A DNA stretch of 64,000 bases from Terrimicrobium sacchariphilum (GCF_001613545.1 NZ_BDCO01000002.1:2170001-2234000); one strand, 5' to 3'. Counted from the first letter of the stretch, positions 23,192 through 30,916 are shown. A program made the numbers and translations. The notes: generated by a model from the letters alone, not told the origin.

Positions 23192-23331
23192 GCCTCTGGT
23201 TGCTTACGGAAAATCTTTCGACTCGGCGAGCCTCTTTCTATGCGGTGGTGCAGACACATCATGGGGAAAAATGAAACGGTCGTGTGCGCGCAGTCTTGCT
23301 TCATCGGCCCGGTGGAGAGAAAACGTCTGGA

Positions 23332-24918
23332 ATGAGTCAGACAACGTCGTCCCCTGCGGATGTCTTGATCGTGGGAGCCGGCCCCGTCGGCCTCAGCGCC
23401 GCCCTTTGGCTGGCGCAGGCCGGGGTGAAGGTGCGCATCGTGGATCGTCTCGCCGCTCCGATGCGACAATCCCGCGCAGCGATCATTCATTCCCGCACCT
23501 TGGAGCATTTCGAGAGAATGGGGATCGTGGAGGACTTTCTCTCGGCCGGGGTGAAGGTTCATGGCGTCAATGTCATGGGAGAAGGAAATACCACCCTGCT
23601 TCATCCCCGGCTGGACAAGCTGCCCACGGCGTACCCTTTCATGCTGGGGTTGGATCAGTCCCATACCGAGGCCATCCTGGCGCGCAGGCTGGCGGGCTGC
23701 GGCGTGAGGGTGGAGCGCGGGACGGAGTTTCTGGCCTATGATGAACGTGACGCGGCGGTGTCGGTGCGATTGCGCATCGCCTCCGGCGGGCTGGAGGCGG
23801 CCTCGTTCCGGTACGTGATCGGCGCCGATGGCGCGCATAGCGCGGTGCGGGCCGCCATGAAGCTGCAGCTCGAGGGGGAGACGCTGGATTCCGTCTGGAT
23901 CACCGCCGATGTGAAAATCAGCTGGGAGCGGCCGCCGGATGAGCTGTTTGCCTATCTCGGACGCTCGGGGATGATCTTCATCGCCCCGCTCAATGACGAT
24001 CGCTGGCGGGTGATTCTCAATGTCTCCGGCATGACCATGCGTGACGCGGAGAAGCTGGGCTTGTCCGAGATCGAGGCCATCATCCAGGATCGCTTTGGCT
24101 CCCGCATCCCGATGTACGATCCCGTGTGGATCAGCCCCTTTGGCATCAATACCCGGCTGAGTCCCGCGATGAAAAAAGGCCGGGTCTTCATCGCTGGCGA
24201 TGCGTCGCATGTGCACAGTCCGGTCGGCGGACAGGGGATGAACACCGGTATCCAGGATGCGATTAATCTCTCGTGGAAGCTCGCCTCCGTCCTGCACGGA
24301 AATGGTGGAGAGGGCCTGCTGTCCAGCTATCAGATCGAGCGTCATGGCAATGCCCGCAAGCTGCTGGAGCGCGTGGGCCCCGCCACCCGCATGGCGGACC
24401 TGCATTCTTCTCTTTCCATCGAGGTGCGCAATCATCTCATCCGATTCGTCGGCCTCGTGGGCATGGACAATGCCATGGCCGAGACGGTGAGCATGTTGAA
24501 TGTGGCTTACCGGGACAGCGCCATCGTGGAGGAGGGGCATCTGGGCTGGCTCAGCGGCGCTCCCCATGCGGGCGAGCGGGCACCGGAGGCCTGGGGGTTG
24601 CAGACCCGAAGCGGGGCGCACACCCGCCTTCATGCTCTTTGGAAAGGGGATGGCCGGTTTCAGCTCTTGATCTTTGGCAATGCCCTGGCTCCGGCAGATC
24701 TGCCGGGTTTTGTCCGGGTGATCCGCATCTTCCGCGAGGGCAATGCGGGCGATTCTGTGGTCATCGACCGCCGAGGCGAGGCTCATAAGGCCTACGCTGT
24801 CGGAAAGGATGGCGCCTGCTATCTCATCCGCCCCGACGGTATCATTTCCTACCGTGGGATTTCCTCTGATATGAGTTTGTTAATCAGGCATTTGGAGAGA
24901 AATTTTGGCACTGAGTGA
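23332..24918 (+). CDS. FAD-dependent monooxygenase of the PheA/TfdB (phenol hydroxylase) type
   Basis: A 528-residue class A flavoprotein hydroxylase candidate. GxGxxG is VLIVGAGPVGLSAAL near residue 13, the DG motif is VIGADGAHSAVR near 162, and the GD motif is GDASHVHSPVGGQGMNTG near 288. The C-terminal ~130 residues resemble the thioredoxin-like tail of phenol hydroxylases. Such enzymes add one oxygen atom to an aromatic ring with NAD(P)H. The start is ATG 23332; the frame is open upstream to 23284 but that region has no ribosome binding site. It stands alone, with no ring-cleavage genes nearby, so the substrate is unknown. Confidence 0.85.
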   Translation: MSQTTSSPADVLIVGAGPVGLSAALWLAQAGVKVRIVDRLAAPMRQSRAAIIHSRTLEHFERMGIVEDFLSAGVKVHGVNVMGEGNTTLLHPRLDKLPTAYPFMLGLDQSHTEAILARRLAGCGVRVERGTEFLAYDERDAAVSVRLRIASGGLEAASFRYVIGADGAHSAVRAAMKLQLEGETLDSVWITADVKISWERPPDELFAYLGRSGMIFIAPLNDDRWRVILNVSGMTMRDAEKLGLSEIEAIIQDRFGSRIPMYDPVWISPFGINTRLSPAMKKGRVFIAGDASHVHSPVGGQGMNTGIQDAINLSWKLASVLHGNGGEGLLSSYQIERHGNARKLLERVGPATRMADLHSSLSIEVRNHLIRFVGLVGMDNAMAETVSMLNVAYRDSAIVEEGHLGWLSGAPHAGERAPEAWGLQTRSGAHTRLHALWKGDGRFQLLIFGNALAPADLPGFVRVIRIFREGNAGDSVVIDRRGEAHKAYAVGKDGACYLIRPDGIISYRGISSDMSLLIRHLERNFGTE

Positions 24919-24967: not shown

Positions 24968-24984
24968 AATAAGAAAATCTTATT
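24968..24984. promoter_or_regulatory. Perfect 17-bp palindrome upstream of the radical SAM-Feo locus
   Basis: AATAAGA-AAA-TCTTATT, a perfect inverted repeat 36 bases before the first start codon. It abuts the candidate -35 box and would suit a dimeric repressor. An iron or redox regulator (Fur-, DtxR- or Rrf2-like) is inferred from the downstream genes; the sequence does not match a consensus I can name. Confidence 0.45.
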
Positions 24985-25020: not shown

Positions 25021-26058
25021 ATGAACTGGATCTCTTATTGCGATCGCCCGGAAGTGGTCGTGTGGGAGATGACCCGGGCTTGTCGGCTGGCGTGCACTCA
25101 TTGCCGCGCCGAGGCCCAGCCCAAGCGCGATCCGCTTGAACTGGATACGAATGAAGCCCGGACTCTCATCGATCACGTAGCAGCCTTTTCCCCACGATTT
25201 TTCATCTTCAGCGGAGGAGATCCCTCCCGGCGACCCGATCTCGTCGAACTCGTCGCCCACGCCGCCAGTCGAGGACTGCGCGTAGCCCTCAGCCCCAGCG
25301 CCACGCCGGATATGCTGGCTCTGGATTTTGAAGCCCTCGCCGAGGCTGGCCTGGCTTGCTTGTCCTTCAGTCTTGATGGGGCTACGGAGGAAACTCACAA
25401 CACCTTTCGCGGGGTGAAGCGTGCCTGGGAGTGGACGATGCAGGGCATCGCAGCCACTCGCAAGGCGGGCATTCCGTTCCAGATCAACACAACGATCACC
25501 GCGCAGAATTATCATGAGTTTGACGCGATGACGACGCTCGTGGAATCCCTGAAGCCCTCCGTCTGGAGCATTTTCATGGTGGTGCCAACCGGCCGTGCCG
25601 ATGCGCATCAATTGCCCGAGCCCAAGCAGGCCGAGGCGCTTCTCAACAAGCTCTGTGAGCTTTCGCGCCGGGTGCCCTTCGCCATTAAAACGACGGAAGC
25701 TCCCCAGTATCGCCGCATTCAGCTCCAGCAGGCTGAGCGTGCCGGGTTGGAACGTCCTCATGTGGGAGGCACCAATGACGGGCGGGGCTTTGTTTTCATC
25801 TCGCACCGCGGTGAAGTGTGCCCGAGCGGGTTCCTGCCTGTCTCTGCTGGCAATGTCCGACGTTTGCCATTGCTCCAGATTTATCGCGAATCACCGCTTT
25901 TCCGCTCCCTGCGCAATCCCACCGCGCTCAAGGGCAAGTGCGGCCGGTGCGACTACCGCATGCTTTGCGGCGGATCGCGTGCCCGTGCCTTCGCTCTTCG
26001 CGGCGACCCGCTCGCTGAGGAACCCCTTTGCACCTATCAACCTAAACCGCAGGAATGA
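25021..26058 (+). CDS. Radical SAM/SPASM protein, AhbD-like (TIGR04053-type)
   Basis: A 345-residue radical SAM enzyme. The SAM cluster motif is CRLACTHC near residue 20 (CxxxCxxC), followed by FSGGDPSRRPDL (GGxP-like) near 61. The C-terminal SPASM-like region has CPSGFLP near 262, GKCGRCDYRMLCGGSRARA near 303 and a final cysteine in EEPLCTYQP, enough for an auxiliary 4Fe-4S cluster. This C-terminal pattern is that of AhbD-type enzymes, which decarboxylate Fe-coproporphyrin III to heme in the siroheme-dependent route, and of close relatives of unknown role. It overlaps the next radical SAM gene by four bases and leads an operon continuing into feoAB. Exact reaction unproven. Confidence 0.82.
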   Translation: MNWISYCDRPEVVVWEMTRACRLACTHCRAEAQPKRDPLELDTNEARTLIDHVAAFSPRFFIFSGGDPSRRPDLVELVAHAASRGLRVALSPSATPDMLALDFEALAEAGLACLSFSLDGATEETHNTFRGVKRAWEWTMQGIAATRKAGIPFQINTTITAQNYHEFDAMTTLVESLKPSVWSIFMVVPTGRADAHQLPEPKQAEALLNKLCELSRRVPFAIKTTEAPQYRRIQLQQAERAGLERPHVGGTNDGRGFVFISHRGEVCPSGFLPVSAGNVRRLPLLQIYRESPLFRSLRNPTALKGKCGRCDYRMLCGGSRARAFALRGDPLAEEPLCTYQPKPQE

Positions 26059-27227
26059 TTAATCTGACTCGTCTTTATCTCGGAGCCAGCCAGCCGGCCG
26101 ACGGCTTGCGTTACGGCACCGGTCATCATCGGCCTTTTGCCTCCGCCCGGGAGCGTCGCCCCGTGGTCGTCTGGAACATCACCCGCCGGTGCAATCTCTC
26201 CTGCATGCACTGCTACTCCGACTCGTGCAACCAGAACTACGAGGGAGAGCTTTCGTTTGAGGAATGCAAGGGTGTCATCGACGACCTGGCCGATTTCGGT
26301 GTCCCGGCGGTGTTGCTCTCCGGTGGAGAGCCCATGATCCGGCAGGATTTTTTCTCCCTCGCCCGTTATGCGGCCAAGCGTGGGCTGCCTTTTACCCTCT
26401 CAACCAATGGCACCCTGCTTTCGCGACCGGCGGTTTTCAGCCTGCGTCAGATGTCCTGCCGCTACGTGGGGATCTCGCTCGACGGTATCGGCAAGGTGCA
26501 CGACAAATTCCGTGGCCGCGTCGGGGCATTTGAGCGCGCCGTGGAGGGCTTCCGCAACTGCCAGAAGATCGGACAGAAGTCCGGCCTGCGTCTCACCCTG
26601 TCCCGCAATAATATCGATGACCTCGACAACGTCCTGAAGTTCATCGAGGACTACGACATTCCTCGCGTTTGCTTCTATCATCTGGTCTTCAGTGGGCGAG
26701 GGTCCAATCTCCAACTCGTTGAACCTGAGCGCACTCGCATGGCTCTCGACAAGATTCTCGACAGGATCAAAATCTGGCAGAGCAAAGGAATCGAGCGTGA
26801 GGTCCTTACCGTGGATCAACCGGCGGATGGCGCCTACCTCTACCTGCGCCTGCAGGAGGAGGACCCTGCCAGGGCCGACGATGCGTTCAAGCTCATGCAG
26901 TGGAATGGCGGCGGCGCCAATAGCTCCGGTGTCGGGATCGCCAATATTGACAGCCAGGGCAATGTGCATCCCGACCAGTTCTGGCAGACCCACACGATCG
27001 GAAATGTGCGAGATCACAAATTCAGCGAGATTTGGACTCAATCCAGTGATGAACTTTTGACCGGGCTTCGCGACCGATTGCCGAGATTGAAAGGTCGCTG
27101 TGGATCGTGCAGATTCCAGAAAGTCTGCGGTGGCGGCTTCCGGGTTCGTGCAGCGCAGGTGCATAACGATCCTTGGGCCACAGACCCCGGATGTTACCTT
27201 ACTGATGAAGAAACGCTCGCAGCATAA
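26055..27227 (+). CDS. Radical SAM/SPASM protein, NirJ/AhbC-like
   Basis: A 390-residue radical SAM enzyme. The cluster motif CNLSCMHC lies near residue 48 and is followed by LLSGGEPMIRQDFF. The segment NGGGANSSGVGIANIDSQG and VHPDQFWQTHTIGNVRDHKF near residue 290 is the signature I associate with NirJ and AhbC, which remove side chains from didecarboxysiroheme for heme d1 or heme b. The C-terminal SPASM cysteines are in GRCGSCRFQKVCGGGF and DPGCYL. It is translationally coupled to the AhbD-like gene upstream and the feoA start lies two bases after its stop. No nitrite reductase genes are present, so heme d1 synthesis is unlikely here. Confidence 0.83.
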   Translation: MINLTRLYLGASQPADGLRYGTGHHRPFASARERRPVVVWNITRRCNLSCMHCYSDSCNQNYEGELSFEECKGVIDDLADFGVPAVLLSGGEPMIRQDFFSLARYAAKRGLPFTLSTNGTLLSRPAVFSLRQMSCRYVGISLDGIGKVHDKFRGRVGAFERAVEGFRNCQKIGQKSGLRLTLSRNNIDDLDNVLKFIEDYDIPRVCFYHLVFSGRGSNLQLVEPERTRMALDKILDRIKIWQSKGIEREVLTVDQPADGAYLYLRLQEEDPARADDAFKLMQWNGGGANSSGVGIANIDSQGNVHPDQFWQTHTIGNVRDHKFSEIWTQSSDELLTGLRDRLPRLKGRCGSCRFQKVCGGGFRVRAAQVHNDPWATDPGCYLTDEETLAA

Positions 27228-27228
27228 G

Positions 27229-27510
27229 ATGGATCCAGCCGTTCCCCAGTCGACCGGAGAAACTCCGAAACGCCGTCGTACGGTGAACGATCTGGCTCCC
27301 TGCGAGCAGGCGAAGGTAACCGCCATTCATCATGACGAGGGTATGGGCCAGCGGCTGATGTCGCTGGGGCTCGTACCCGGCTGTCCGCTTCAGTTTGTCC
27401 GCTCTGCTCCTCTGGGTGATCCTCTCATGATCAAGATCCCTGGATGTTTGCTCTGCCTCCGGCGAGCGGAAGCCCGGTTGGTCGAGATCGAGGACGAAAT
27501 CGCCGCCTGA
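27229..27510 (+). CDS. feoA: Ferrous iron transport protein A
   Basis: A 93-residue cytoplasmic SH3-like FeoA protein that supports FeoB. The core reads VNDLAPCEQAKVTAI, GQRLMSLGLVPGCPLQFV, APLGDPLMIKIPGCLLCLRRAEA, the family's standard pattern. It has an extra N-terminal ~20 polar residues (with TPKRRRTV) compared with the usual 75-residue form. I start at ATG 27229, one base after the radical SAM stop; an ATG 24 bases upstream in the same frame would overlap that gene. It is followed by feoB after 11 bases. Confidence 0.9.
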   Translation: MDPAVPQSTGETPKRRRTVNDLAPCEQAKVTAIHHDEGMGQRLMSLGLVPGCPLQFVRSAPLGDPLMIKIPGCLLCLRRAEARLVEIEDEIAA

Positions 27511-27521
27511 GGGAAATAACT

Positions 27522-29633
27522 ATGGGGAATCGCCGCGCCACTACCGGAATCGCGACCATCGCGTTGATCGGGAATCCCAATACGGGAAAAAGCACACTTT
27601 TCAATCGCCTGACGGGTTCCCGTCAGCGCATCGGTAACTACCCGGGTGTGACTGTAGCCAAGAAATCCGGGCGGATGGTTCTCGATGGGCGGGAGATCAA
27701 TGTTCTCGATCTTCCCGGTTCTTATTCACTCGCGGCGAGTTCGCCCGACGAACGAATTTCCTCCGACGTCCTGTCCGGCCGCGGCGAGGACGTGCCGGAT
27801 CTCACCATCTGCGTCGTCGACTCGCGTCAACTGGCGCGGAGCCTGCAACTGGCTTGTCAGATTGCGGACTTGGGAGTCCCGCTGATCATTGCCCTTAATT
27901 TCATGGACGAAGTCGTGGCTTCGGGCCAGTCGGTCAATGCGGCACTGCTCAGCCAGAGGCTGGGTGTGCCGGTCATTCCGATCTCCGCGCGAAAAGGCCA
28001 GGGACTTGATGGCCTGTATCGGGCGATCGGCGAGTGTCTGCAGACGCCCGTATTTCTTCGCACTCCGCAGTGGCCGCAATGCGTGAAAAGCGCCACGGAG
28101 GTGTTGCGCAATCAGCTCATAACAAACATCCATCTCTCGGATGCGGAACTCCGCCGCATCCTCTTTGATCATCGCTCTTCTTATCTCGACCTGGTGGGAT
28201 GCCCGGAGAGCGAGCGCAAGCCGATCGTGGAGAAGGGCCGCACTCCCATCCGTGACGCGGGATTTGATCCGTATTCGATCGAGATGGTGGTTTTTCAGAA
28301 GCTGATCTCTGAGCTTTTGGAGGGGGTCACTCGTGCGGACAATCATGCGCAGATCCAGATGACGGGACGCATCGACTCGATCCTGACTCATCGTTTCTTC
28401 GGTCTTCTCATTTTTGCGGGGCTGATGTTCATGGTCTTTGAGGCCATCTACACGCTCGCGGGACCTGCCATGGACCTGATCGATACGTTATTTTCCTGGC
28501 TGGGCGAAGTGGTGGGGAATTTCCTCGCTCCTGTCCCGGTCTTCCAGTCGCTAGTCTGCGACGGTATCATCGCCGGTGCGGGCGGTGTCGTGGTATTCCT
28601 GCCGCAGATTTTTCTTCTGTTCTTCTTCGTCTCGCTGCTGGAGGACACGGGCTACATGGCACGGGCAGCTTTCCTCATGGACAAGCTCTTCGGCTGGTGC
28701 GGCCTTAATGGCAAGAGCTTTGTGCCCCTGCTATCCAGCTATGCTTGCGCCGTTCCCGGCATCTTTGCCACCCGTACGATCGAGAATCCCCGCGCGCGGC
28801 TGGTCACGGTCCTCGTCGCTCCGCTCATGAGTTGCTCGGCTCGTCTGCCGGTCTATCTACTGCTGATCGGGGCATTTATCGAACCCGTGTGGGGCGTCTG
28901 GGCCGCTTCGCTGACGCTCTTCGCTATTCAGATGCTCGGGCTCTTCGTCGCCCTGCCCCTGGCCTGGGTGGTGAATCGCTTTATTTTCAAGACACCGAGC
29001 CAGCCATTTATCATGGAAATGCCGCCTTACCGTTTCCCGGTGCCCAAGGATGTGCTCTGGCGCATGTGGATGGGCGGAAAGGAATTTCTTCAGCGTGCGG
29101 GTACGATTATTGTCGTGATCAGCGTCATCATCTGGGCGCTCCTCTATTTCCCACATAAGCAGGGGGCGCATGACCAGAGTGCCGATCCTGTGGTGCAGGC
29201 AGAGCAGATCGAGCAAAGTTTCCTGGGCCGCGCCGGACATGCTTTGCAGCCGATCTTTGCCCCGGCGGGTTTTGACTGGAAAATCACCGTTGGCGTCCTG
29301 GCGAGTTTCCCGGCCCGCGAGGTGATTGTCTCCACCTTGGGAATCATCTATCGCCTTGGTGGCGATGTGGAGGATTCAGACGGCGCACTCGCCGATGCTC
29401 TTCGCGCCGAGCGCTGGCCTGACGGCCCCCACAAGGGGCAGCCGGTATTCACCCTCCCGGTGGCGCTCGCCATCATGGTCTTTTTCGCCTTTTGTATGCA
29501 GTGCTCATCGACCCTGGTGGTCATTGCCCGGGAAGTGGGCGCCCGGTATGCCGTCCTCACCTTTGTCTATATGACCACTCTGGCCTGGGTAGCGGCCGTG
29601 GCGGTTTATCAGACGACCTCGTTATTCCTATGA
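27522..29633 (+). CDS. feoB: Ferrous iron transporter B
   Basis: The 703-residue inner-membrane Fe2+ transporter. The N-terminal G domain has G1 GNPNTGKST, G2 region YPGVTVAKK, G3 DLPGSYSL and G4 NFMD; the GDI-like helical domain follows to about residue 280, then two Gate repeats and the CFeoB core with conserved cysteines (SYACAVPGIFATR and MSCSARLPVY). The last helices end at QTTSLFL. Start is ATG 27522, with GGGA seven bases upstream. The stop overlaps the small Cys-rich gene (ATGA). It imports ferrous iron, the form available without oxygen. Confidence 0.96.
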   Translation: MGNRRATTGIATIALIGNPNTGKSTLFNRLTGSRQRIGNYPGVTVAKKSGRMVLDGREINVLDLPGSYSLAASSPDERISSDVLSGRGEDVPDLTICVVDSRQLARSLQLACQIADLGVPLIIALNFMDEVVASGQSVNAALLSQRLGVPVIPISARKGQGLDGLYRAIGECLQTPVFLRTPQWPQCVKSATEVLRNQLITNIHLSDAELRRILFDHRSSYLDLVGCPESERKPIVEKGRTPIRDAGFDPYSIEMVVFQKLISELLEGVTRADNHAQIQMTGRIDSILTHRFFGLLIFAGLMFMVFEAIYTLAGPAMDLIDTLFSWLGEVVGNFLAPVPVFQSLVCDGIIAGAGGVVVFLPQIFLLFFFVSLLEDTGYMARAAFLMDKLFGWCGLNGKSFVPLLSSYACAVPGIFATRTIENPRARLVTVLVAPLMSCSARLPVYLLLIGAFIEPVWGVWAASLTLFAIQMLGLFVALPLAWVVNRFIFKTPSQPFIMEMPPYRFPVPKDVLWRMWMGGKEFLQRAGTIIVVISVIIWALLYFPHKQGAHDQSADPVVQAEQIEQSFLGRAGHALQPIFAPAGFDWKITVGVLASFPAREVIVSTLGIIYRLGGDVEDSDGALADALRAERWPDGPHKGQPVFTLPVALAIMVFFAFCMQCSSTLVVIAREVGARYAVLTFVYMTTLAWVAAVAVYQTTSLFL

Positions 29634-29827
29634 GTCTGTTGGATACAGTCCTTGTCTCGGCCAGCTTGCTGGCCTCGATCTGGTGGATCTGGCACATGGT
29701 CAGGCATCGCGGCCGTATCGACTGCTGCGGTGCGTGCAGCGTCAAGCGCAGTGGATGCAAATCCTGCGCCTTCAAGACGGATATCTCGCGGAAGGCGGCA
29801 GGGCGGAAAAATCCCGCCCAGCTCTAG
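29630..29827 (+). CDS. Small FeoB-associated Cys-rich membrane protein
   Basis: A 65-residue protein with one N-terminal transmembrane helix (LLDTVLVSASLLASIWWIW) and a cytosolic tail holding four cysteines in CCGACSVKRSGCKSC plus one more position nearby, followed by a basic tail. It matches the pattern of FeoB-associated Cys-rich proteins (FeoC-like in position, not in fold), which probably handle Fe2+ or a cluster at the cytoplasmic mouth of FeoB. Its ATG overlaps the feoB stop, and it ends 15 bases from the convergent channel gene. Confidence 0.8.
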   Translation: MSLLDTVLVSASLLASIWWIWHMVRHRGRIDCCGACSVKRSGCKSCAFKTDISRKAAGRKNPAQL

Positions 29828-29842
29828 CTTCACATTACTTCC

Positions 29843-30916
29843 CTACTCGGAAGCAGTTCCAAACCACTTTTTCTGGAGATCGGTATTGGCGCCGCTCTCC
29901 GAGAGTGCCAGCAGGGCACGGTTGATGCGTTCGCGGAGCGGGCTGTCCTGCTGGAGGCCGATGGCGTAGTTCTGTCGGTCAAAGGCGGGTTCGACGAGTT
30001 GAAGCTTGTCGTCGCCATCCTTGGAGACAGCGTACTGGACGAGCGGCGCGTCATAGACCACTGCGGCCACTTCCTTGCGCTTCAACGCGGTAAGGCACTC
30101 GGTCAGGGTCGCGTACGGCTTGGGATTCGCCCCATGATTGGTGAGCCAGTTTGCGGCGGTGCTGCCCGTGATCGTCGCCACGTCGCGACCGGGCAAATCT
30201 CCCGGTCCGGAGATATCGCCCTTGAGCGTGTTGACGGTGAGGGTGGTCGTGAAAGACGCGGTGAGGAGGGAAACCAGCACGATACTGAGCAGCATCCAGA
30301 TGATGGCAATGATACGACCTCCCACGCCGACCGGCCCTTTGTTATCCGCGCCGCCGACGAGCAGTGTGCTGATCGTCCACCAAAAGGACTCCCAAAGGCC
30401 GTGGCGATAGCTCTTCGGCCACATCTCCTCGTTGACTTTGTGTTCGTACAGCCAGACGAGGTGGGAAATGACGAGCATCACCACGATCAAAAGGGTGAAG
30501 GCGCCTACGAGTTTCCAGTTCAGGAGATTTCCAACCAGTTGGAAGATGGTGTCGGCGATGGAAGCTGTCTTTCCCGAGGTGACAATCTGAAGGCCGGATT
30601 CATAGAAGGGCTGGGAGAAATCCATGATTTCCTCGCGTTTGGATGTAACGCTCAGCGCACCGACCGCAGCATCCGCCGTCCGATTGGTCAAGGCGTCGAC
30701 CATCTCCTGGGCGGTTCCCACGACCTGTACGTCATAGTCCATCCCGGCCTCGCGGGCGACTTCCTGCCACAGGTCCATGGCATAGCCGACGCGCCTGCCG
30801 TTTTGCTCAAAGGAGAACGGCTCGATATTGCGGGTCACGATGTGGATTTTCTGACTCCAGGCCTCCAGGGTGAAGCTGGAAAAGAAAGCAACCAGAACGA
30901 GAAAGAAGCGATTCAT
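29843..30916 (-). CDS. Second glutamate-receptor-like protein with a non-K+ pore loop
   Basis: A 357-residue paralogue of the channel at 12053. It has a signal peptide (to about residue 21), an S1 lobe with VTSKREEIMDFSQPF (ligand-carboxylate arginine equivalent), M1 near residues 133-157, a pore-loop segment FWWTISTLLVGGADNKGP near 178-195 and a following helix ending in LLTASFTTTLTV, the glutamate-receptor gate pattern. Where the other protein has TVGYGD, this one has TLLVGGAD, so it should not select K+ by the usual filter. S2 completes the binding domain. It may conduct other ions or act as a ligand sensor. Convergent with the feo operon. Confidence 0.8.
   Translation of the reverse strand: MNRFFLVLVAFFSSFTLEAWSQKIHIVTRNIEPFSFEQNGRRVGYAMDLWQEVAREAGMDYDVQVVGTAQEMVDALTNRTADAAVGALSVTSKREEIMDFSQPFYESGLQIVTSGKTASIADTIFQLVGNLLNWKLVGAFTLLIVVMLVISHLVWLYEHKVNEEMWPKSYRHGLWESFWWTISTLLVGGADNKGPVGVGGRIIAIIWMLLSIVLVSLLTASFTTTLTVNTLKGDISGPGDLPGRDVATITGSTAANWLTNHGANPKPYATLTECLTALKRKEVAAVVYDAPLVQYAVSKDGDDKLQLVEPAFDRQNYAIGLQQDSPLRERINRALLALSESGANTDLQKKWFGTASE

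Follow-up and report, generated by a model that had tools for sequence, protein, structure and literature searches.

A putative heme-completion operon joined to ferrous iron uptake genes in Terrimicrobium sacchariphilum

Gene order of the rSAM-feo cluster

The window analysed here is a stretch of 64,000 nucleotides from the genome of the soil bacterium Terrimicrobium sacchariphilum (GCF_001613545.1, NZ_BDCO01000002.1:2170001-2234000), and positions are counted from its first letter. The plus strand carries, at 25021–29827, a cluster of five open reading frames (ORFs): two genes for radical S-adenosylmethionine (SAM) enzymes, termed rSAM1 and rSAM2, followed by feoA, feoB and a small cysteine-rich ORF. 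The radical SAM/SPASM protein encoded by rSAM1 (25021–26058, 345 amino acids) belongs to the TIGR04053 family, is AhbD-like and is a putative oxygen-independent heme b synthase, which would convert Fe-coproporphyrin III to heme b. The product of rSAM2 (26055–27227, 390 amino acids) is a radical SAM/SPASM protein of the AhbC/NirJ1 type and a putative 12,18-didecarboxysiroheme deacetylase (AhbC).

A sequence-only reading of this DNA had described the genes as running into one another, and most of the junctions bear this out. The two radical SAM genes share 4 bp (ATGA), and the ATG of feoA (27229–27510) lies at 27229, one base 3' of the rSAM2 stop. The small ORF (29630–29827) likewise overlaps feoB by 4 bp. 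The claimed overlap of feoB with feoA did not stand: the likeliest feoB start is the ATG at 27522, 11 bp 3' of feoA, and the two genes would overlap only if an alternative in-frame ATG at 27444 were used. FeoA is recognised by its Pfam profile (64 bits, cut-off 23) and the ferrous iron transporter FeoB (27522–29633) by TIGR00437 (512 bits, cut-off 316) and by its FeoB_N, Gate and FeoB_C domains. The small ORF, predicted by sequence reading to encode 65 amino acids, has a hydrophobic N-terminal part and contains the motif CCGACxxxxxGCKSC. It resembles a FeoB-associated small protein, yet no Pfam family is hit at a limit as loose as E ≤ 10, and no NCBIfam model recognises it.

Identity of the two radical SAM enzymes

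Three related profiles recognise rSAM2, namely NirJ1 (TIGR04054, 495 bits), AhbC (TIGR04546, 466 bits) and NirJ (TIGR04051, 396 bits), and all three scores are under the curated cut-offs of 650, 650 and 515 bits, respectively. The AhbC cut-off is reached by no enzyme among the 97 genomes of the same order that form the comparison set (G000–G096) and in only one of five matching control genomes. The radical SAM motif CxxxCxxC (C46, C50 and C53) and four C-terminal SPASM-type cysteines (C349, C352, C358 and C380) are invariant in the rSAM2 alignment. Sequence searches of the PDB yielded nothing beyond generic members of the SPASM group, PqqE and SkfB among them. Distant orthologues, with which rSAM2 is 50–54% identical, sit in tetrapyrrole operons. 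In Actinomycetota, where the identity is ~54%, two loci (L181 and L196) have the order cobA-hemD, rSAM2 orthologue, AhbD and an AhbAB-like gene, and a third (L201) also places the orthologue with cobA-hemD and AhbD; the AhbD beside the orthologue scores 533 bits, above its cut-off of 500. The orthologues of Riflebacteria/Ozemobacter adjoin hemA and a hemC-cobA/hemD fusion, and a Paenibacillus plasmid has an AhbC-like gene, a NirJ2/AhbD-like gene and an AhbA-AhbB fusion in that order, with both Ahb halves above their cut-offs. In a tree built by a quick method and containing several long branches, the verrucomicrobial rSAM2 proteins group with the Actinomycetota and Riflebacteria enzymes. Taken together, these comparisons point to rSAM2 being of AhbC type.

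The top rank of the NirJ1 profile could be read otherwise. NirJ works on the same intermediate as AhbC, and a TIGR04053 gene of Thermus adjoins NirS, so that the pair could be imagined to make heme d1 or another modified iron tetrapyrrole instead of heme b, with a true NirJ or NirJ1/NirJ2 function. We regard this as quite improbable. The NirJ1 profile also outscores the AhbC profile for the Actinomycetota and Paenibacillus enzymes that sit in AhbD/AhbAB operons; the NirJ1 label is therefore no argument for heme d1, and the pattern suggests that proteins labelled NirJ1 are often AhbC. Furthermore, the rSAM2 clade excludes three NirJ proteins encoded in annotated cd1 nitrite reductase clusters, PF02239 (NirS/NirF) is absent from the three genomes of the window's genus (G000–G002), the haloarchaeal TIGR04053 clusters hold copper NirK or nosZ, and a NirK-like gene for a multicopper-oxidase/cytochrome c protein is found near one of the verrucomicrobial pairs.

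SPASM enzymes are frequently peptide modifiers, and the operon itself contains the 65-residue cysteine-rich ORF; in haloarchaea, TIGR04347 homologues are annotated beside a candidate ribosomally synthesised and post-translationally modified peptide (RiPP). The two enzymes might modify a peptide, perhaps the small protein of the operon, and act in iron uptake. Very little credence can be given to this idea, since peptide-modifying SPASM models reach at most 130 bits on rSAM2 (against 466–495 for AhbC and NirJ1) and at most 112 bits on rSAM1, the pair is mostly found without feo, and the distant orthologues stand in tetrapyrrole operons. The preference of the sequence-only reading for a porphyrin over a peptide substrate is upheld by these scores, which favour the AhbC/AhbD/NirJ group, and its other suggestion, that the enzymes serve iron transport itself, finds no support in a pair that mostly lacks feo.

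For rSAM1, the best profile is TIGR04053 (423 bits, cut-off 395), while the AhbD profile (TIGR04545) gives 319 bits, under its cut-off of 500. In the tree, rSAM1 lies within a clade of 22 TIGR04053 members that includes Haloferax larsenii and Thermus (support 100/100), and this clade is sister to the AhbD of Actinomycetota. The H. larsenii member (502 bits against 395) is encoded between a DUF2249 gene and a halocyanin gene, followed by a cbb3/NorB-type gene. The ahbD gene of Haloferax volcanii (HVO_2144) is accompanied, at the corresponding places, by a blue-copper gene (HVO_2145) and by norB (HVO_2147). In the ahbD deletion mutant, growth by both denitrification and dimethyl sulfoxide (DMSO) respiration is impaired, and heme restores the DMSO-respiring growth (PMC5746218). 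From the synteny between the H. larsenii member and the HVO_2144 cluster, it is probable that HVO_2144 belongs to TIGR04053 and that this family is one of AhbD-type heme synthases. NCBIfam names may mislead here, TIGR04053 being an unnamed family that probably holds a genetically supported AhbD. A further member, in Deinococcus ficus, is clustered with CbiX/SirB and cobA.

The neighbourhoods of TIGR04053 genes also bring to mind a different function. The family and the rSAM pair recur in nitrate and denitrification clusters, some of them with copper NirK, a setting that also counts in favour of the anaerobic heme reading. In Thermus the gene is beside NirS, in Halobellus near the copper enzyme NirK and in Natronorubrum next to nosZ, and NnrS-like genes occur near eight of the rSAM2-family loci found in a scan of named genomes. 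In the set of loci L235, L236 and L241–L244, which includes that of D. ficus, the TIGR04053 genes of Thermus and haloarchaea are clustered with NirS, NirK, NosZ or NorB-type genes. With rSAM1 under the AhbD cut-off and ChdC present in most pair-bearing genomes as well, rSAM1 might be an accessory enzyme of anaerobic nitrogen-oxide respiration and not a coproheme decarboxylase. This seems unlikely, as no denitrification gene is seen in the window's operon, the clade of rSAM1 is sister to AhbD, and the syntenic H. volcanii ahbD mutant is impaired in DMSO respiration too and is rescued by heme (PMC5746218).

Heme genes in the genome and across the order

Searches of the T. sacchariphilum genome (4,751,807 bp in 3 contigs) place both radical SAM genes in the company of a siroheme decarboxylase (AhbAB) and a putative heme synthase (ChdC). 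The former is a single AhbA-AhbB-type fusion of ~390 amino acids with two PF17805 (AsnC_trans_reg2) domains, encoded away from the rSAM-feo locus. It matches a solved NirD-like protein, 4ch7 (E = 2e-11), and the HXYXR active-site motif of AhbB, which contains the catalytic arginine (PMC4145669), appears as HCYWR in its second half in 21 of 21 relatives examined; the first half has HVVVR. The one ChdC-type protein scores 155 bits with PF06778 (cut-off 25) and 238 bits with NF008913, narrowly under the cut-off of 253. No match to ferrochelatase (PF00762) or to HemE was found in this genome. These results support siroheme-dependent heme synthesis, one of the options read from the window, and the check then proposed, that ahbAB be present and the coproporphyrin and protoporphyrin genes absent, comes out favourably for AhbAB, HemH and HemE, with hemN and hemG/Y outside the search.

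Across the 97 genomes, rSAM2 is present in 14, ten of which have the rSAM1–rSAM2 pair, and all ten encode AhbAB. Two pair-bearing genomes, and hence carriers of rSAM1, have no ChdC match (G001 and G054), while two others with AhbAB and rSAM2 have ChdC and no detected rSAM1 (G083 and G088); the pattern fits exchangeable last steps, in small numbers. G001 has a second rSAM1–rSAM2 pair (L032:8991-11220), which in the trees is not the closest relative of the feo-linked copy and which adjoins genes named by sequence reading as a molybdopterin oxidoreductase, a Rieske protein, a NarK-like transporter, a CRP/FNR-type regulator and NnrS. The idea that this second copy is a pseudogene was rejected, as its in-frame TAG is reached only where the homology runs out and the frame is a normal open one. 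Beyond the order, the scan of named genomes extends the rSAM2 family over Verrucomicrobiota, Omnitrophota, Riflebacteria, Armatimonadota and Actinomycetota, with the pair widespread in Verrucomicrobiota.

Two further species of the genus show the same order of genes, and the rSAM1–rSAM2 pair is retained in other genera of the order, so that the arrangement is not a product of chance. Conservation of the rSAM-Feo order in Verrucomicrobiota, raised as a question by the sequence-only reading, is thus partial: the pair is widespread, the tight fusion to feoAB is confined to the window's genus (G000–G002), and looser feo linkage is seen elsewhere. A locus of a separate Chthoniobacteraceae lineage (L162) has feoA and feoB ~1.2 kb downstream of rSAM2, three loci (L142, L147 and L156) have a divergent FeoB downstream of rSAM2, and in Omnitrophota (L176) FeoB lies upstream of it. 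None of the 62 loci taken as controls, which surround AhbAB, ChdC and an aldo/keto reductase discussed below, has feo genes, and this suggests that the recurring linkage is more than chance; the feo-linked loci share kinship, however, and some enter the count a second time under another name. Is the fusion nevertheless a neutral, lineage-specific accident, and the pair a heme module without functional link to FeoAB? That the tight fusion is limited to one genus, and that no feo gene lies beside the pair in the order's other genera or in most of 80 wider loci, speaks for it; the looser linkage in L162, the L142/L147/L156 group and L176, set against none of 62 control loci, speaks against it, with small numbers and kinship ignored. 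A neutral fusion is in our view less likely than not. In the group of three (L142:8339-11694, L147:1164-4902 and L156:9213-11549), rSAM2 is followed by a weak Radical_SAM-like protein as well as by the divergent FeoB, and these Verrucomicrobiota include a metagenome-assembled genome labelled Methylacidiphilum.

Both genes flanking the operon also stay beside it in the sister species. They encode an FAD-dependent monooxygenase (23284–24918, plus strand) and a glutamate-receptor-like channel with SBP_bac_3 and Lig_chan domains (29843–30916, minus strand). By-eye comparison of the upstream regions of G000, G001 and G002 reveals an imperfect inverted repeat, AATAAGAAAATCTTATT (24968–24984, plus strand), which lies 5' of rSAM1 within a conserved block shared with the sister species G001 and G002 and is a possible operator. 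Neither promoter nor terminator scans produced a convincing signal for the rSAM-feo operon; we infer a single transcript across these genes and control by oxygen or iron.

The survey of the order also exposes a gap. AhbAB is encoded in 72 of the 97 genomes and ChdC in 72, with both in 66, while the 12 genomes with HemE are also those with HemH. Most relatives appear to make heme by the siroheme route with one enzyme still to be found: 56 genomes, of which 52 have ChdC, encode AhbAB but none of HemE, HemH and an AhbC-like radical SAM enzyme, so that no recognised enzyme accounts for their conversion of didecarboxysiroheme to coproheme. Tentatively, and with somewhat less than even confidence, we propose that in most of the order the acetate groups are removed between AhbAB and ChdC by an enzyme other than AhbC, and that the feo-linked pair of Terrimicrobium is the anaerobic alternative to it. 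An aldo/keto reductase (L091:6721-7752 and its orthologues in L105 and L215–L234) is a candidate for this step, a lead from gene distribution and neighbourhood. Its orthologue is present in 56 of the 72 AhbAB genomes and in three of the 25 others (Fisher p = 7e-9, kinship ignored), and it is absent from all eight genomes with HemE/HemH only. Its gene is near that of a CbiX/SirB-type chelatase in family f8, lies within ~4–5 kb of AhbAB in two genomes of 0.9 Mb (G031 and G040) that retain ChdC as well, and in G092 takes its place in a series that runs from hemA through cytochrome-c-maturation-like genes to AhbAB, ChdC, the aldo/keto reductase and cobA-hemD. As 11 of the 56 gap genomes lack the reductase, it is not the sole answer, and a divergent AhbAB that performs more than two decarboxylations may be an alternative. 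An aldo/keto reductase encoded near AhbAB in the window's own genome (L042) was set aside, as it is not the candidate's orthologue, which is found at C2:2490449. Separately, 17 relatives, including most of family f12, have neither AhbAB nor HemE/HemH and are possible heme auxotrophs or incomplete assemblies, and a LarE-like gene (a PP-loop ATPase, named by sequence reading) lies near ChdC in seven of 21 ChdC loci (L043, L111–L113, L120, L128 and L129).

Proposed role and comparison with known systems

T. sacchariphilum NM-5T grows both anaerobically and with 20% oxygen (PMC5532833). For such a facultative anaerobe, we consider it likely that the locus is an operon for anaerobic heme completion and ferrous-iron uptake within a siroheme-dependent route to heme b. 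The AhbA-AhbB fusion would decarboxylate siroheme to 12,18-didecarboxysiroheme, from which rSAM2, acting as AhbC, would remove both acetate groups, forming Fe-coproporphyrin III. The AhbD-like rSAM1 would then turn two propionates into vinyl groups without oxygen, yielding heme b, and in the presence of oxygen the peroxide-dependent ChdC would take its place. FeoAB would import Fe(II), the form of iron available without oxygen, which siroheme and the [4Fe-4S] clusters of rSAM1 and rSAM2 both require. The catalytic activities assigned to the two enzymes are those predicted from their sequences and neighbourhoods.

Several observations weigh against this proposal. The scores of rSAM2 with AhbC and of rSAM1 with AhbD fall short of the curated cut-offs, as do those of the AhbA-AhbB fusion (56 bits with AhbA, cut-off 140, and 86 bits with AhbB, cut-off 125). 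HVO_2144 is linked to TIGR04053 by synteny, not by sequence. The association of the pair with AhbAB is weak on its own (Fisher p = 0.06, kinship ignored), and the heme-gene searches of the genome covered AhbAB, ChdC, HemE, HemH and NirS/NirF rather than the upstream tetrapyrrole steps. Two genomes, G011 and G013, have an rSAM2 homologue (L035:1439-2716 and L036:10297-11478) but neither rSAM1 nor AhbAB, and they encode HemE and HemH; the N-termini of these homologues diverge and their N-terminal motif is changed, so that some members of the family possibly have another role or have lost theirs, and rSAM2 homologues do not always belong to this pathway.

If the proposal is right, the siroheme-dependent heme route gains a bacterial phylum in which the last step can proceed either without oxygen or with peroxide, and one operon ties the oxygen-independent part of that route to ferrous iron uptake. 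It also suggests TIGR04053 as a family of anaerobic heme synthases. The gap in 56 of 97 genomes makes a missing heme enzyme directly searchable and may matter more than the feo-linked locus. No description of AhbC in Verrucomicrobiota was found in the open-licence literature, nor any paper there joining AhbC or NirJ-type genes to feoAB, in keeping with the sequence-only reading, which knew of no such link.

Compared with known systems, the 3' part of the cluster resembles a Feo operon, with feoA, feoB and a small cysteine-rich ORF in that order; it differs in the two tetrapyrrole-type radical SAM genes in front and in a small ORF without a Pfam match. The nir operons of the Pseudomonas and Paracoccus types share a homologous radical SAM enzyme, NirJ, and the intermediate didecarboxysiroheme (PMC7242693). 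In contrast to them, NirS and NirF are absent here, and rSAM2, ~44% identical to the NirJ of Thioclava, belongs to a clade outside which the NirJ proteins of the tree fall. The Ahb pathway of sulfate reducers and methanogens (PMC7242693, PMC3942049) has the same proposed intermediates and two radical SAM steps, whereas the T. sacchariphilum sequences are under the NCBIfam equivalog cut-offs for AhbC and AhbD, ChdC is additional, and the feo linkage was not found in the literature searched. A close likeness is to H. volcanii, which has AhbAB, AhbC and AhbD (HVO_2144) for anoxia and ChdC (PitA) for oxic growth (PMC5746218, PMC8305020). There, too, a single genome encodes AhbAB, AhbC, an AhbD-type radical SAM enzyme and ChdC, neither uroporphyrinogen decarboxylase nor coproporphyrin ferrochelatase is reported, and the AhbD gene lies in an anaerobic gene cluster. 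T. sacchariphilum differs in its fused AhbA and AhbB, in the adjacency of its AhbC and AhbD-like genes and their junction with feoAB, and in being a verrucomicrobial host. The proposed split between rSAM1 and ChdC would nevertheless mirror the division of labour between AhbD and ChdC in Haloferax (PMC8305020).

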